Shown: piece by piece, positions 33,942 through 45,820 of the stretch | Position numbering within the stretch: the stretch's first letter is position 1 | Layout of the letters: each line of letters begins with the position of its first letter | From: Cuneatibacter sp. NSJ-177 | GTDB taxonomy: Bacteria > Bacillota > Clostridia > Lachnospirales > Lachnospiraceae | Length of the DNA stretch: 64,000 nt | NCBI RefSeq assembly: GCF_022867805.1 | Contig: NZ_JALIFO010000006.1 | Location: 124,001 to 188,000 of the forward strand | Direction: 5' to 3' | The notes under the pieces: generated by a model | What the model saw: the letters and a program-made list of their open reading frames with translations, nothing else | Told to the model about the DNA's origin: nothing | The model's database searches: none | Translations under genes and position numbers: made by a program

Positions 33942-33997
33942 TCTAAATGTAACAAACTGTGTCGAAAACTAGGAAAATAGTTGCATGAGACAAGAAT

Positions 33998-34018
33998 GTG
34001 TGGTAACATTAACTACAC
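33998..34018. promoter_or_regulatory. BlaI-type operator candidate
   Basis: GTGTGGT and ACTACAC form an inverted repeat with one mismatch and a 7-base spacer, between the promoter and the blaI start. BlaI/MecI repressors bind inverted repeats containing ACA/TGT elements at such positions. Confidence 0.45.
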
Positions 34019-34041
34019 AGGTAATCGTGGAGGAAAAAGTT

Positions 34042-34413
34042 GTGAAAGCATTGACTGAATGCGAAGTTGTAGTGATGAAATGTATCTGGGAAACCGATCA
34101 TGACATGGCTCTGCCGGAAATCATGGAGATGGTGAATCGCCGGTTCCAGAAGAGCTGGAAGCCACAGACAGTATCAACGTTTCTGACCCGCTTGGTGAAA
34201 AAGGATTTTCTGAATATGTATCGCCAAGGCCGCAGCTTTCTCTATCATCCCTTGGTAGCTGAGCTGGATTACGGAGAAGGGCAGATCAACAAATGTGCAG
34301 ATCTGTGGTGCAACAACGACGCCGACCTGTTCATAAGCGCTTTAAATAAGCAGCGCAAGCTGAAGAAAGATGAAGTTCAGAGAATTCGTGCTTTGATCGA
34401 TGACTTGGATTAA
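34042..34413 (+). CDS. blaI: BlaI/MecI/CopY family repressor
   Basis: The 123-residue winged-helix repressor begins VKALTECEVVVMKCIWE, like the LTxxEWEVMxxLW opening of BlaI. It continues with TVSTFLTRLVKKDFLNMYRQGRSFLYHPL, the recognition helix and wing (about 40-70). The C-terminal helices would dimerise and contain the protease-sensitive site. The GTG at 34042 is preferred because GGAGGAAAAAGTT precedes it; the ATG at 33985 has no site and lies beside the operator. It overlaps the BlaR1-like gene by 14 bases, the normal coupling of repressor and receptor. Targets may include the surrounding envelope genes. Confidence 0.93.
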   Translation: MKALTECEVVVMKCIWETDHDMALPEIMEMVNRRFQKSWKPQTVSTFLTRLVKKDFLNMYRQGRSFLYHPLVAELDYGEGQINKCADLWCNNDADLFISALNKQRKLKKDEVQRIRALIDDLD

Positions 34414-35815
34414 TCATTTATTCTTCGCTGCCTGTCTTTGTTCCGTCTCCGGCACGCTTGCTCTGCTCGAGTGGAAGCTTTTGCTTCCAATTCTCGAGCG
34501 GTGGCGGCCAAATCTGAACGCTGTGATGCTGAAATTAGTTGTAATCCAATACCTTTGTCCGATTGTATATATCGTTATGAGGTGGAGTCGGATGAGCTTT
34601 CAGCACGAGCAAAGGTTTGGTATGCTTTTCATAACTACAAATCTAATTGGCGCAGTTATGAAGGTTTTAGGAGTGGTGTGGCTGATCGCCATTATTCTCC
34701 AGCTGCCAAAACAGGTACGGATGTTTCTTCGGGATCGCGAGATCCTCCAGGGCAACGTACCGGTGGAGATGGAAGGCGCGGAAGAACTGTTTCGGGAAGT
34801 TTGCAAGGAACTGGGGATTCGCAGAAAAATTCGTTTGTTTGCCAATGATGCGTGCTATTCTCCGGTAAGGATCCGGATTGTCCGGCCGGCGGTTCTGTTA
34901 CCTTACGGGATGGAGTGCGATGAACAAGAACTTCGGATGATATTCATTCATGAGCTGACACATTACCTTCACCATGATTTAGCGTATAAAGTTGCCTGTT
35001 TCCTAATTTGTATCATCCACTGGTTCAATCCATGTGTAAGGAATTTGGTGGAACACTACGAGGAATGGGCGGAAACAGCCTGTGATGTAAGTACCTGTGA
35101 AAAGGGCAAGCGGTATTTTACGAAAACCGAATATGCCCTGATGCTGCTCCGTCATGCGGAGGAAGACAACGGCGATGATCCGGAAGGACACGTCTTGTCA
35201 CTTTACAGCAATGATAATGAAATCGAGAGGAGAATTAACAGATTAAAGACAGTAAGAAATATTAAGAAGCCGTTACCTAAAGCAATGCTAGCCATCTTGA
35301 CTGCAGTATTATTTGTTGGAAATAGTATACCAGCATTTGCGGTTGGTGATATGTTGGCAAATGGCTACGAAGAAGTTTACGAAAGTACGTCGGAATTTTT
35401 GGCGGAGTCCCAAAAAGTAAAGATGACAATCAGTGCGGAAGGATTCAAAGTCAATGAAGCGGGAGAAATTGAGATTCCTGCAGATGAAGTAAATCCAGAG
35501 GGGTTGCCTGAAATTGTTATGGAAGGGGATAATAAGGCCGAAGCTACTAAGTTCTATAACTGGGATATTCCAGCCAATACATATGGCCGGTCTTTTGAAT
35601 TTACCTGTAAATCTGGTAGCCGGATAGCAATAATGGGTAAATTCGATCAAACAATTCAAGCTGGTATAATTGAGCCAAATGGAAACAGGCGGTGTGTCAT
35701 CGATTCAAGCGTAATAAGTCATACGTTTACCTTGGATCAGGCTGGAACTTACAACTTCTATGTAAAGAACACGAATGACTTTGAAATCCATGTGGAAGTG
35801 TCCGTAGCATATTAG
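34400..35815 (+). CDS. BlaR1/MecR1-like M56 membrane metallopeptidase with a novel ectodomain
   Basis: The 471-residue protein has membrane helices at about 5-25, 38-58 and 75-100. The M56 peptidase domain has the zinc motif HELTH (His184-Glu185, His188) and a downstream EEWAETACD segment that may give the third ligand. A last hydrophobic helix (about 295-315) ends IPAFA, followed by an extracellular domain (about 316-471). In BlaR1 this place is taken by a penicillin-binding sensor; here it is a beta-rich module (PANTYGRSFEFTCKSG, IQAGIIEPNGNRRCVIDS, TYNFYVKNTND) unlike a penicillin-binding fold, so the signal is not necessarily a beta-lactam. The helix ending IPAFA also looks like a cleavable signal. 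Two further copies of this region follow. Confidence 0.9.
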   Translation: MTWINHLFFAACLCSVSGTLALLEWKLLLPILERWRPNLNAVMLKLVVIQYLCPIVYIVMRWSRMSFQHEQRFGMLFITTNLIGAVMKVLGVVWLIAIILQLPKQVRMFLRDREILQGNVPVEMEGAEELFREVCKELGIRRKIRLFANDACYSPVRIRIVRPAVLLPYGMECDEQELRMIFIHELTHYLHHDLAYKVACFLICIIHWFNPCVRNLVEHYEEWAETACDVSTCEKGKRYFTKTEYALMLLRHAEEDNGDDPEGHVLSLYSNDNEIERRINRLKTVRNIKKPLPKAMLAILTAVLFVGNSIPAFAVGDMLANGYEEVYESTSEFLAESQKVKMTISAEGFKVNEAGEIEIPADEVNPEGLPEIVMEGDNKAEATKFYNWDIPANTYGRSFEFTCKSGSRIAIMGKFDQTIQAGIIEPNGNRRCVIDSSVISHTFTLDQAGTYNFYVKNTNDFEIHVEVSVAY

Positions 35816-35899
35816 AAGGACAACGATCCGAAGTAATATGTCGTGTTCCTTTACAATAGCAACAACGAAATCGAGAGGAGAATAAGTAAATTGAAGACA

Positions 35900-36463
35900 A
35901 TGAGAAATTTAAGGGCAATGTTATCAAAAGTTATGCTGACTACCGTTGCTGCCGTGGTATTTGTTGGGAACAGTATTCCTGCATTTGCGGCTAGTGATGT
36001 TTTGGCAAATGGTTATGAAGATGTTTACGAAGGCACGTCGGATTTATCGTCAGAGGCCCAAGAAATAAGAATTACGTTCAATGCGGAAGGTTACGAAGTG
36101 AATGAAGCAGGTGAAATTGAGATTCCAGCAGATCAAGTGAATCCAGAGGGCTTGCCGGAGATCGTGATGGGAGGAGATGAAAGGCTTAGGACACTAAAAT
36201 TTTATGAATGGGATGTACCGGCCAATACCTACAGTCGTTCATTCGATTTTACCTGTCAATCCGGTGGACGTATTGGGATATCAGTTGTTTGTGATCATAC
36301 GATTCAAGCCGGTATTATTGAACCGAATGGTGATAGACGGTGTGTTATTGATTCAGGTGTATTCAGCCATACGTTTACATTGGATCAGACAGGAACTTAT
36401 AACTTTTATGTGAAAAATACCAATAATTTTGAAATTCATCTAGAGGCATCCGTAGCATATTAA
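35900..36463 (+). CDS. Secreted paralogue of the BlaR1-like ectodomain (copy 2)
   Basis: The 187-residue frame is homologous to the last ~190 residues of the preceding protease. Homology begins right after that gene's stop: bases ~35818-35900 still match the protease codons around SLYSNDNEIERRI but contain an in-frame TAA, so this is a 3'-end duplication. From the ATG at 35900 the product has a basic start (MRNLRAMLSK), a hydrophobic core and IPAFA before ASD, that is, a plausible signal peptide. The helix that anchors the domain in copy 1 would thus become a secretion signal. The ectodomain (about 32-187) is intact. Other starts (GTG 35843, TTG 35891 after AGGAG) are possible. Function is not known; a soluble decoy or partner of the receptor is an inference. 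Confidence 0.7.
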   Translation: MRNLRAMLSKVMLTTVAAVVFVGNSIPAFAASDVLANGYEDVYEGTSDLSSEAQEIRITFNAEGYEVNEAGEIEIPADQVNPEGLPEIVMGGDERLRTLKFYEWDVPANTYSRSFDFTCQSGGRIGISVVCDHTIQAGIIEPNGDRRCVIDSGVFSHTFTLDQTGTYNFYVKNTNNFEIHLEASVAY

Positions 36464-36464
36464 A

Positions 36465-36719
36465 ATGGTAGCTCCTGCTAATACATACGGACGCTCTTTT
36501 GATTTCACATGTAAATCCGGTGGGAAAATTGCTATAGCAGTTACTTGTGATAGCACAATCCAAGCAGGCATTATTGAACCTAATGGTGATAGACGTTGTG
36601 TAATTGATTCGGGGGTATTCAGCCATACGTTTACGCTAGATCAGACTGGAACGTACAATTTTTACGTAAAGAACACGAACAACTATGAAATACATGTAGA
36701 CGCATCGGTAGTTTATTAA
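36465..36719 (+). CDS. Third, truncated copy of the ectodomain (copy 3)
   Basis: An 84-codon frame starts at an ATG one base after the copy 2 stop (TAAAATG) in another frame. It covers only the C-terminal half of the module, from PANTYGRSFDFTCKSG to the final Tyr. It has no signal peptide. Over 43 codons (36555-36683) its protein is identical to copy 2, yet about 22 of those codons differ synonymously, so it has long been under selection as protein. It may be translated by coupling to copy 2, or be the surviving end of a formerly complete copy. I cannot decide between a working small protein and a recent remnant. Confidence 0.5.
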   Translation: MVAPANTYGRSFDFTCKSGGKIAIAVTCDSTIQAGIIEPNGDRRCVIDSGVFSHTFTLDQTGTYNFYVKNTNNYEIHVDASVVY

Positions 36720-36768
36720 CAACAAATTTACCACTCAAAACCAACAACTACAAAGGAGGCACATAGAT

Positions 36769-37203
36769 ATGCTGCTTAATCTTCCTTTCACAAGGGATCT
36801 TCAGGAAATTCAGCGCAATTTGGAAAAGCTGATTATGAGTTACTTGAAAATTAGCTTTAATCCTTATCTTGATATTATCCATGATTACGAGCATTACCAC
36901 ATTCATATGGATAAAATCGTTTATCTGGAGAAGTGCCAGAGAGTGACCGAGATTCACACAACGGATGGAAAGATATTCCGGACTTATCAACCCATGTACA
37001 AGTATGAAGAATTACTGCCGGAATCCATGTTCTTCCGAATTAGCCAGGGCGCGATTGTTAACTGGAGATTCATGCACCATGTGAAGGGGTACCGGGCGAT
37101 CGTTCGCTGGGGAAAAGATAAGTCGGTGGATCTACCCGTGTCCCCGAAAGTGTATAAGTTTGTGAAAAACGAACTGTCATTCAAGACAAGCGATCGGGCT
37201 TGA
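36769..37203 (+). CDS. LytTR DNA-binding domain protein
   Basis: The 144-residue protein has a short N-terminal helical part (1-40) and a LytTR domain (about 45-140): KIVYLEKCQRVTEIHTTDGK, then SMFFRISQGAIVNWRFM, and a Lys-rich end (PVSPKVYKFVKNEL). LytTR domains bind direct repeats in promoters of envelope, competence or toxin genes. No receiver domain is attached, as in stand-alone LytTR regulators. The start follows AAAGGAGGCACATAGAT. It lies 49 bases after the ectodomain copies and may share their transcript. Its last 23 bases overlap the convergent tmcAL gene. Confidence 0.87.
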   Translation: MLLNLPFTRDLQEIQRNLEKLIMSYLKISFNPYLDIIHDYEHYHIHMDKIVYLEKCQRVTEIHTTDGKIFRTYQPMYKYEELLPESMFFRISQGAIVNWRFMHHVKGYRAIVRWGKDKSVDLPVSPKVYKFVKNELSFKTSDRA

Positions 37204-42991: not shown

Positions 42992-45820
42992 ATGAGCAAA
43001 GAAAAGCGGACAATCGTTCGGGGAAATCTGAATGGGCGAAAATTTACGCCTCAGATGACGATTGATGATTGGGATCAGACAGGGGATTTGCCGGAAATCC
43101 GGCTGGAAGAGCTGGAGGAGGACCGTCCGGCGGAAAACGCGGGAGGCTTGGATCCGATACTGGGAACTTCCGATGTGAATGTGGAAGATCTGGATCAGAC
43201 GCGGAGCATTCCCAGAGTGAATGTGGAAGATCTGGATCAGACGCAGAGCATTCCCAGAGTGGATGTGGAAGATCTGGATCAGACACAGAGCATTCCTAGA
43301 GTGAATGTGGAAGATCTGGATCAGACGCGGAGCATACCTAGAGTGGATGTGGAAGATCTGGATCAGACGCGGAGCATACCTAGAGTGAATGTGGAGGACT
43401 TGGACCAAACAAGAAGCATTCCCAGAGTGAATGTGGAGGACTTGGATCAGACAAGAAGCCTGCCGAAAGTAAGTGTGGAAGACCTGGATCAGACGAGGGG
43501 CCTGCCGCGGAGTATTCCGAAAATGCCCGGCGGAAATTCGGATCAGCCGCAGGAACTGCCGGAGATCCGTGTGGACGATCTGGATCAGACCATGGGGATA
43601 TTCCGGCTCGGCGAGGAAAAAGCAGATGCAAAAAAGGGTATGCCGGAATTCGGGATGGAGGATTTAGGACGGACTTCGAGCATGTCGCGGGTATTGGAAG
43701 GCTTTTTGGATTCGGAGGAAGAGAAGCCGGAGCGGACGGCTCCATCCGGCCGCAAACCGGCGGAAGAGGATCCGGACGCCACCAGAGCCCTTCCTCGGTT
43801 GAATGAAGACGGGAGAAGGCGGGCGGCGGCCTCTCACGGAGTAGAGATTGAAGATTTGGATGAAACACGGGTGATTCCGTCTATTTCTCTGGAGAAAGTG
43901 GAGACGGATAAAGAGCCGGAACCGGGAGAGATCGGGGAAGCTTTGCTTCAAGCTGGCCAGGAGGCTTCGGCCGCCGAAGCGGTCTTTCCCGGCTGGAGCC
44001 CAGAGAGACCAGAGCAGAGGGTTCCGGAACCGGAGAGTGACATTCCCCTCTCGCCCAGGGAGCAGGATCCGGTGGGAGCGCCGCCCAGAAAGCGGCCTCC
44101 GAGAAAACCTCCGAGGGAGGAAATGCCGGAGGAAGAGCTTCCCGTGGAGGCGGATGCCGGGCGGAGCCGGAAACGGCTTGTGATCATTGCGGTGTCGGTT
44201 GCCGTTGTCCTGGTTCTCGCGCTGGGAGGATTCGGAATTTACCGGGTGATGGAAAACAAGAAAATGATGGCGTATTATGAAAGCCATTTCCTGCCTGCCA
44301 CAATGATCAATGGCAACGATTGCTCCGGTATGACGGTGGAAGAGGTAAAGGAATTATTTTCTCAGGAAGTGAAAAACTATGCCCTGACCATCCGCGGCAT
44401 CGACGGTTCGGAGGATAAAATCTCAGCGGCTGAGATCGGCCTTGTCATGAAATTTGATGTGGATTTCCATGGGCTTCTGGATTCTCAGGATAAATCGGGC
44501 TGGAGGAAAGCGGAAGAGAATCCTTCCTCCTATACCTTCACCAGCGGCTGGGAGTACGACGCCAAGCTGCTGAAGGACCGGATCGGTATGAGCTCCTTGT
44601 TCCAAAATATGACGGAATCCAAGGATGCGGAGATTGTCTACGACGAGGCTGCGGCTCAGTTTGTTCTGAACCCGGAAGTGATCGGCACCAAGGTGGACCT
44701 GGAACAGGTTTTCGGCCTGGCGGAGAGTTCGGTCGGAACCTTGCAGAATACCTTGTCCCTGGAGGAAGCGGGCTGCTACCCTACGGTGGTTAAGGCCGAT
44801 GAGGCGATGGCCAAAGCCGTGGAGACCATGAATGTCTATTTGAAATCGAAGGTGGCCTATTCCTTTGGCGACACAACGGAAACCTTGACGCCGGAAATGA
44901 TCAAAAGCGCTATTTCCTACGACACTGCTTTTCAGGTGACGCTTGACAATACGGTGTTTGAGACGTGGGTAAAAGGACTGGCGGAGAAGTACAATACGGT
45001 TGGAAAATCCCGCTCTTTCCGCAGCACAAAAAGCGGAACCGTCACGGTCAGCGGCGGAAATTACGGATGGAAGATGAACCAGGAAAAGACGCTGGCCCAG
45101 ATTTTGGAAGCGGTGCAGACCGGAGGGACCGTGACCGGCGACCCGGTTTACTCCCAGGAGGGCAAATCCCGCGGCAGCAACGACATCGGCGACACCTATA
45201 TCGAGGTGGATCTGACGAACCAGGTCGTCTATTACTACGAGAACGGTTCCCGGAAACTGAGTTCCGATGTGGTCACCGGGCGCGTGATCCGGAATACTAA
45301 GACCGTGAAAGGCGTTTACTACATCTATGATAAGGAACGGAACCGGACGCTGAAAGGGGCGGATTATTCCAACGACGTCAGCTACTGGATGCCGTTTTAC
45401 GGAGGATATGGCCTTCATGATGCTCCGTGGAGAAGCTCTTTCGGCGGCAGCCTGTATCTGACTAACGGATCCCACGGATGTGTCAACATGCCGGTCAGCA
45501 AGGCAAAAAGCCTGTACAATATGATTTCCGAGGGTACGCCGGTGATTGTGTTCGGCGGGGTGGATTCTTATGCGGGAGATCCGGAGGATACGACGACGAA
45601 AGCGCCGGAGACTACCACGACTGTGCCGGAAACCACCACGAAAACACCAGAGACCACAACGACTGCGCCGGAGACCACAACGACTGCGCCGGAAACCACC
45701 ACAACAGCGCCGGAAACCACGACAACAGTGCCGGAGACCACCACAACTGAGCCGGAGACCACCACGACGGTTCCGGAGACTTCCCCGCAGGAGCAGCAGG
45801 ATGATTCCAGCGGAAGTTGA
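42992..45820 (+). CDS. Membrane-anchored L,D-transpeptidase with long repetitive cytoplasmic tail
   Basis: The 942-residue type II membrane protein has four regions. (1) A cytoplasmic, disordered tail (1-392) with eight tandem 14-residue repeats (about 62-173) and several looser copies, all centred on D-x-T-x-x-I/L-P. (2) One membrane helix (about 394-416). (3) Extracellular peptidoglycan-binding-4-like segments (about 430-720) and a YkuD catalytic domain (about 730-860), with His809 in GLHDAPW and SHGCVNM holding His828 and nucleophile Cys830. (4) A Thr-rich tail of 7-residue PETTTT units (871-931) that may thread the wall. The enzyme would form 3-3 peptidoglycan cross-links. The start follows AGGGGGGTTTT. 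The repeats may be phosphothreonine motifs (inference). Confidence 0.9.
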   Translation: MSKEKRTIVRGNLNGRKFTPQMTIDDWDQTGDLPEIRLEELEEDRPAENAGGLDPILGTSDVNVEDLDQTRSIPRVNVEDLDQTQSIPRVDVEDLDQTQSIPRVNVEDLDQTRSIPRVDVEDLDQTRSIPRVNVEDLDQTRSIPRVNVEDLDQTRSLPKVSVEDLDQTRGLPRSIPKMPGGNSDQPQELPEIRVDDLDQTMGIFRLGEEKADAKKGMPEFGMEDLGRTSSMSRVLEGFLDSEEEKPERTAPSGRKPAEEDPDATRALPRLNEDGRRRAAASHGVEIEDLDETRVIPSISLEKVETDKEPEPGEIGEALLQAGQEASAAEAVFPGWSPERPEQRVPEPESDIPLSPREQDPVGAPPRKRPPRKPPREEMPEEELPVEADAGRSRKRLVIIAVSVAVVLVLALGGFGIYRVMENKKMMAYYESHFLPATMINGNDCSGMTVEEVKELFSQEVKNYALTIRGIDGSEDKISAAEIGLVMKFDVDFHGLLDSQDKSGWRKAEENPSSYTFTSGWEYDAKLLKDRIGMSSLFQNMTESKDAEIVYDEAAAQFVLNPEVIGTKVDLEQVFGLAESSVGTLQNTLSLEEAGCYPTVVKADEAMAKAVETMNVYLKSKVAYSFGDTTETLTPEMIKSAISYDTAFQVTLDNTVFETWVKGLAEKYNTVGKSRSFRSTKSGTVTVSGGNYGWKMNQEKTLAQILEAVQTGGTVTGDPVYSQEGKSRGSNDIGDTYIEVDLTNQVVYYYENGSRKLSSDVVTGRVIRNTKTVKGVYYIYDKERNRTLKGADYSNDVSYWMPFYGGYGLHDAPWRSSFGGSLYLTNGSHGCVNMPVSKAKSLYNMISEGTPVIVFGGVDSYAGDPEDTTTKAPETTTTVPETTTKTPETTTTAPETTTTAPETTTTAPETTTTVPETTTTEPETTTTVPETSPQEQQDDSSGS
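43175..43510 (+). repeat. Eight tandem 42-bp coding repeats
   Basis: Consensus protein unit VNVEDLDQTRSIPR. Copies 1-8 vary at position 2 (N/D/S), 10 (R/Q), 11-12 (SI, SL, GL) and 14 (R/K). Looser relatives occur outside the array: WDQTGDLP (about 29), LDQTMGIF (about 197), PDATRALP (about 265) and LDETRVIP (about 291). Confidence 0.9.
45602..45784 (+). repeat. 21-bp coding repeats (PETTTT tail)
   Basis: About nine units of xPETTTT (x = A, V, T, E) at the C-terminus of the L,D-transpeptidase, resembling Thr/Pro-rich wall-spanning linkers. Confidence 0.85.

Follow-up and report, generated by a model that had tools for sequence, protein, structure and literature searches.

Why should a run of genes that encodes a membrane receptor continue with further copies of the receptor's own sensor domain? 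The question is raised by a locus within the 64-kb stretch of DNA analyzed here (the window), which comes from the 4.28-Mb genome of a Lachnospiraceae-type bacterium. A blaI-type gene, an M56 protease gene, two additional copies of the ectodomain of that protease (copies 2 and 3, the receptor's own being copy 1) and a LytTR gene follow one another there, all on the + strand. To our knowledge, nearly everything known of BlaR1-type receptors concerns β-lactam resistance. Our analysis points to a large, undescribed BlaR1-type branch in gut Lachnospiraceae that carries a different sensor. Evolution has repeatedly set a secreted copy of this sensor beside the receptor, and the receptors mostly keep a signal-peptidase site.

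A receptor operon with three copies of the ectodomain

The first gene of the run encodes a BlaI/CopY-type repressor (34042–34413, + strand; Pfam Penicillinase_R, E = 8.8e-25) from a GTG start preceded by GGAGG; a longer open reading frame opens at 33985. Its end overlaps the start of the gene for an M56 (BlaR1-type) membrane zinc metalloprotease receptor of 471 residues (34400–35815, + strand; Pfam Peptidase_M56, E = 1.4e-24), the translation of which has a HELTH motif (HEXXH) and contains copy 1. Just 5' of blaI, we read a promoter-like TTGCAT-17-TAACAT from the sequence (33982–34019, + strand), with an imperfect dyad, TGTGTGGTAACATTAACTACACA, lying over its -10 element (33997–34019; 16 of 23 positions self-complementary). 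The dyad has its sole match within the 64-kb window at this position, and the two elements together are a candidate BlaI operator and promoter of an autoregulated operon. The run ends with a LytTR DNA-binding protein (36769–37203, + strand; Pfam LytTR, E = 1.4e-11), which lies directly 3' of the M56 gene in both other genomes of the genus (loci L007 and L008). No intrinsic terminator was found inside the gene run.

Repeat alignments bear out the original prediction of three tandem copies at this place. The repeat unit is exactly 648 nt long and comprises the last helix and the ectodomain of the BlaI-paired receptor; its start lies inside the M56 gene, some 50 codons short of where the last helix ends, and its final codon is the M56 stop. 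Without gaps, 35168–35467 matches 35816–36115 at 73%, and 35549–35817 matches both 36197–36465 (75%) and 36453–36721 (70%), with spacings of 648 and 256 nt. Copy 1 (35168–35815, + strand) consists of a juxtamembrane segment, a last helix ending in IPAFA followed by VG, and the ectodomain, the GOLD/PPC-like core of which we place at 35546–35812 (+ strand) by alignment to copy 2 and to the copy 2 model.

Copy 2 (35816–36463, + strand) holds an open reading frame from TTG 35891 or ATG 35900 to the TAA at 36463 and is predicted to be a secreted, stand-alone ectodomain. The single in-frame stop of this unit (35834–35836) is harmless because it lies upstream of both starts. An AGGAG Shine–Dalgarno sequence (35876–35880, + strand), derived from juxtamembrane codons of the receptor, is placed 10 nt 5' of the TTG and 19 nt 5' of the ATG. 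As had been proposed, the former anchor helix has become a predicted signal peptide (35891–35989, + strand). By its sequence it is of the Sec type, with a basic start, a hydrophobic stretch, an A-x-A site and no second helix (MRNLRAMLSKVMLTTVAAVVFVGNSIPAFA followed by ASD), and its predicted cleavage between NSIPAFA and ASD agrees with the family-wide signal-peptidase consensus described below.

Copy 3 (36465–36719, + strand) is an 84-residue open reading frame whose ATG lies 1 nt past the copy 2 stop, in a different frame. It had been described as the C-terminal half only; the truncation stands, and what remains is better described as the globular domain minus its signal peptide and its first predicted strand, LKFYEWDV. 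The junction of copies 2 and 3 has no slippery sequence, and the idea that a frameshift fuses the two was rejected. Elsewhere in the window, a separate coding tandem repeat (43100–43530) of VEDLDQTRSIPR-like units lies in the N-terminal part of a 942-residue protein with a PETTTTAPETTT tail.

Fold of the ectodomain and selection on its copies

In Pfam and NCBIfam, no family covers the ectodomain at trusted scores, and neither holds a transpeptidase or β-lactamase match for it. The domain, of about 157 residues, has an all-β, GOLD/PPC-like core, with weak matches to Pfam GOLD (EMP24_GP25L) in 7 of 34 members (best E = 8e-4). Folding mature copy 2 as a single sequence gave a poor model (pLDDT of 52), and a small alignment raised the quality: AlphaFold2 with four aligned sequences predicted a core of six strands (36194–36460, + strand) with a pLDDT of 86.7 and a pTM of 0.75. 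Foldseek placed p24 GOLD domains at the top of the matches to this core model (E = 2.7e-5), and the GOLD domains of TMED1 and p24β1 align to the predicted model with a Z score of 12.1 over 85–91 residues. They are followed by subtilase C-terminal domains, collagenase PPC domains, PliG lysozyme inhibitors and others. The closest solved folds are thus the p24/TMED GOLD domains and the bacterial PPC domains (Z score of 9.5 for that of Bacillus anthracis collagenase), at sequence identities of 11–19% to the ectodomain. On the predicted model the ectodomain is a GOLD/PPC-like β-sandwich, and sharing this fold gives no sure pointer to function. Family searches, the fold model and the structure matches all agree with the original prediction that this is not a penicillin-binding fold.

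The BlaR1/BlaI and MecR1/MecI systems of staphylococci and Bacillus licheniformis likewise pair a BlaI-type repressor gene with an overlapping gene for an M56 protease that has a C-terminal extracellular sensor. Their sensor is penicillin-binding and class D β-lactamase-like, whereas that of the window receptor is GOLD/PPC-like, and they differ further from the window in that only the latter has a separately encoded, secreted sensor copy. The window receptor also misses the NCBIfam BlaR1 equivalog cut-off, with 76.5 versus 400 bits.

All three copies have been under strong purifying selection, as is confirmed by substitution counts (NG86). Over the whole unit, copies 1 and 2 give an ω of 0.13 at a dS of about 1.4; in the core, ω falls to 0.045 for copies 1 and 2 and to 0.043 for copies 2 and 3, and synonymous sites are saturated between copies 1 and 3. 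Copies 2 and 3 agree in 43 residues, for which 22 codons differ, exactly as had been claimed. By parsimony, the private amino-acid changes in the core number 10 in copy 1, 4 in copy 2 and 4 in copy 3, with 3 more sites ambiguous. A neutral simulation over 0.5 substitutions per site produced about 51 amino-acid changes, with a stop probability of 0.9, as against the 4–10 observed per copy (at most 13 when ambiguous sites are counted). Copies 2 and 3 were therefore kept as protein for most of their history, and the proposed maintenance of both duplicates is upheld by core ω values of about 0.04, far from 1. If copy 3 has drifted neutrally, it can have done so only of late, over about 0.05 substitutions per site, in keeping with the signal peptide and first strand having been lost at a late stage. 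From its sequence, copy 3 is probably a third copy that was truncated recently rather than a third functional form.

Secreted domains and signal-peptidase sites across the family

Two more BlaI–M56-type receptors with the domain are encoded in the same genome, on contigs 7 and 14, and in both other genomes of the genus (G001 and G002) the orthologous operon lacks copies 2 and 3. A 34-sequence profile found the domain in 43 of 397 family genomes, and on BlaI–M56 receptors it recurs in about 11% of the Lachnospiraceae sampled. The profile also found it in 4 of 196 genomes in the order draw and 2 of 291 in the class draw, the source genome being counted in each of the three draws. Named relatives, which point to the family of the source genome, include Lachnospira eligens and a rabbit-gut Lachnospiraceae metagenome-assembled genome. 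Copy 2 as the lone query found nothing among genome contigs, a second scan of genome contigs found one locus, and viral contigs gave nothing with the copy 2 query or in further scans.

The original prediction offered a soluble decoy or a co-receptor, and the recurrence of a secreted partner beside M56 receptors in other genera fits either. An intact gene for the secreted domain lies directly 3' of the M56 gene in five genomes (G171, G042, G146, G190 and G858), and in G042 its start overlaps the receptor stop. The gene is found between blaI and M56 in G380 and just upstream of blaI in G031. The module of BlaI, M56 and secreted domain occurs in at least six other genera, and a more distant member of the order (G509) has the blaI–M56–secreted triplet too. 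Within the genus of G190, the secreted gene is present in 9 of 26 species and the full triplet in 8; the fused receptor domain is degenerate there and matches the profile poorly, yet is a homolog (hhalign 95%, E = 2e-8), and the secreted domain stays canonical (52–89 bits). The secreted genes of G146 and G858 form one group (0.91) and most secreted genes of the G190 genus another (0.94), in each case apart from the domains of their own receptors; receptor–secreted pairs therefore outlast speciation.

Related domains also occur in other settings. At three loci (L084:2127-3862, L085:3479-5214 and L086:3285-5077), a secreted domain from this superfamily comes after an ECF sigma/anti-sigma pair, and the anti-sigma ectodomain there resembles the domain (hhalign 92%). 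A stand-alone secreted copy of 141 residues lies between the enolase and threonyl-tRNA synthetase genes on contig 2 of the source genome, G000 (L041:3348-3773), and its surroundings contain no M56 gene. What looked like stand-alone domains in G393 and G301 were rejected as such, being the ends of frameshifted or deleted M56 genes; at two loci (L090:1700-3391 and L080:3200-3934) the M56 gene is frameshifted or deleted and the ectodomain reading frame is intact.

Sensor shedding from M56–BlaI receptors is already known. In Staphylococcus aureus, the signal peptidase SpsB cuts off the BlaR1 sensor, which is shed (PMC9834060). RsiV of the RsiV–SigV system has a conserved AXA-type site right after its helix, which signal peptidase cuts upon lysozyme binding (PMC4183432), and its ectodomain inhibits lysozyme, its own ligand (PMC5014341). 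In both respects RsiV resembles the system described here; it differs in being an anti-sigma factor rather than part of a BlaI–M56 pair, and no separate soluble sensor gene is described for it (PMC4183432, PMC5014341). In the open-licence literature we found no account of a GOLD/PPC-type sensor, as opposed to a penicillin-binding one, that is encoded together with a secreted copy of itself, which is weak evidence of absence.

An alignment of the last helix of 57 receptors reveals a signal-peptidase I site that is conserved at the helix end, where basic residues and a short hydrophobic segment precede the consensus [VAST]-[YF]-A↓A. Position -3 is V, A, S or T in 52 of the 57, position -2 is mostly Y or F, position -1 is alanine in 41 (alanine or glycine in 47) and position +1 is alanine in 38. 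A loose rule matches 52 of 57 receptors, and in related genomes it matches 25 of the 40 other M56 proteins compared (Fisher p = 8e-4), and another, broader rule also separates receptors from control M56 proteins (p = 0.003). A strict A-x-A rule does not separate the two groups (p = 0.14) because it misses V-x-A and S-x-A sites. By eye, the site is kept in the receptors of the window, G171, G146 and G031 and absent from those of G042, G380 and G858 and from seven of the eight receptors of the G190 genus, which is a trend only. Motif presence alone cannot prove cleavage; given the conserved site, release of the ectodomain is probably general among these receptors, by analogy with BlaR1 and RsiV. 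The proposed division into membrane-bound and secreted copies therefore stands in part. Copy 2 bears the sequence signs of secretion, and the clean distinction from copy 1 probably fails, since the receptor itself has the conserved site. In four control M56 proteins (L134, L135, L119 and L120), the last helix ends in a lipobox-like cysteine (LVGC, LVSC or LLGC), and their ectodomains may become lipoproteins.

Possible roles of the secreted copy

Starting from the established anatomy, purifying selection, recurrence, conserved site and predicted fold, we tentatively read copy 2 as a soluble sensor domain in the receptor circuit, likeliest as a ligand-titrating feedback or neutralizing partner, and give this reading a little less than an even chance. 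On this reading, some or all of the work of the sensor domain would be done in soluble form, outside the membrane. BlaI would repress its own operon and, upon a signal, the M56 receptor would cleave BlaI, as BlaR1 suggests. Signal peptidase I probably sheds the sensor domain of the receptor, because the last helix of the latter resembles a cleavable signal peptide. Copy 2 would be the same domain made directly in secreted form; since it belongs to the receptor's operon, more of it would be present with the circuit on. It would most likely bind the ligand or partner of the receptor domain, and by neutralizing the inducer it would damp the receptor, acting as a sensor-derived scavenger with feedback. 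Copy 3 would be a third copy that recently lost its signal peptide and first strand. Against a scavenger stands the fact that the nearest relatives, G001 and G002, have the operon without copies 2 and 3, and nothing in the sequence distinguishes a scavenger from a co-receptor.

The main rival, favored by the G190 genus, is a trans-acting co-sensor: the secreted domain would be a detached, ligand-binding half that docks on the membrane part of the M56 protein, for example on an outer loop, and activates it. Contact between the outer loop EL1 and the sensor domain is documented in BlaR1 (PMC9834060), and eight species of the G190 genus combine a canonical secreted domain with a degenerate receptor domain, 7 of these 8 receptors being without a clear signal-peptidase site. 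In the window, however, copies 1 and 2 are equally canonical (127.9 versus 123.5 bits), and the other genomes of the genus lack a secreted copy; we consider a co-sensor possible but doubtful here. Rather unlikely, in our estimate, is an output protein that has only its ancestry in common with the sensor and exerts no feedback on the receptor, serving instead in wall or surface binding or as an inhibitor. Such a role would suit the stand-alone secreted members without a nearby M56 gene (for example, the one by enolase on contig 2 of G000, and G219) and a fold common to PPC, collagen-binding and lysozyme-inhibitor domains, but receptors with the same domain repeatedly have the secreted gene as a neighbor across several genera, and so do sigma/anti-sigma loci.

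The copies might also be decaying, functionless duplicates, as their absence from G001 and G002, the missing signal peptide and strand 1 of copy 3, and the ectodomain reading frames retained by broken M56 genes in G301 and G393 could suggest. This is improbable in view of an ω of about 0.04 for both core pairs and of the simulation, which excludes long neutral drift and leaves it possible for copy 3 over the last ~0.05 substitutions per site. Least credible is the idea that the copies are sensor domains kept in reserve to be recombined into the receptor, which the original prediction had also offered. The tandem copies are in register, but their synonymous sites are near saturation with no homogenized stretch and no mosaic, and both other genomes of the genus have a single copy. 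We hold this idea to be very improbable.

Returning to copy 2 as a soluble sensor domain, a wider proposal would be that the BlaI–M56 class of Lachnospirales, with some sigma/anti-sigma pairs, uses diffusible receptor halves for signaling. The sensor would be released by signal peptidase or made from a secreted gene of its own, and would set the receptor threshold or sense in trans, possibly between cells. We offer this generalization at low confidence, as more speculative than the reading of copy 2 itself. If the soluble domain neutralizes or delivers the signal, it would be a bacterial analog of soluble cytokine receptors and would make the role of sensor shedding in BlaR1-type signaling directly testable.

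Small secreted proteins are encoded beside many such BlaI–M56 pairs (for instance, at L039:2095-2622, L042:4264-4791 and L011:364-1465). Several have a peptidoglycan-binding-like repeat, a lipoprotein and an ABC permease are frequently encoded alongside, and these proteins are possibly the regulated output.
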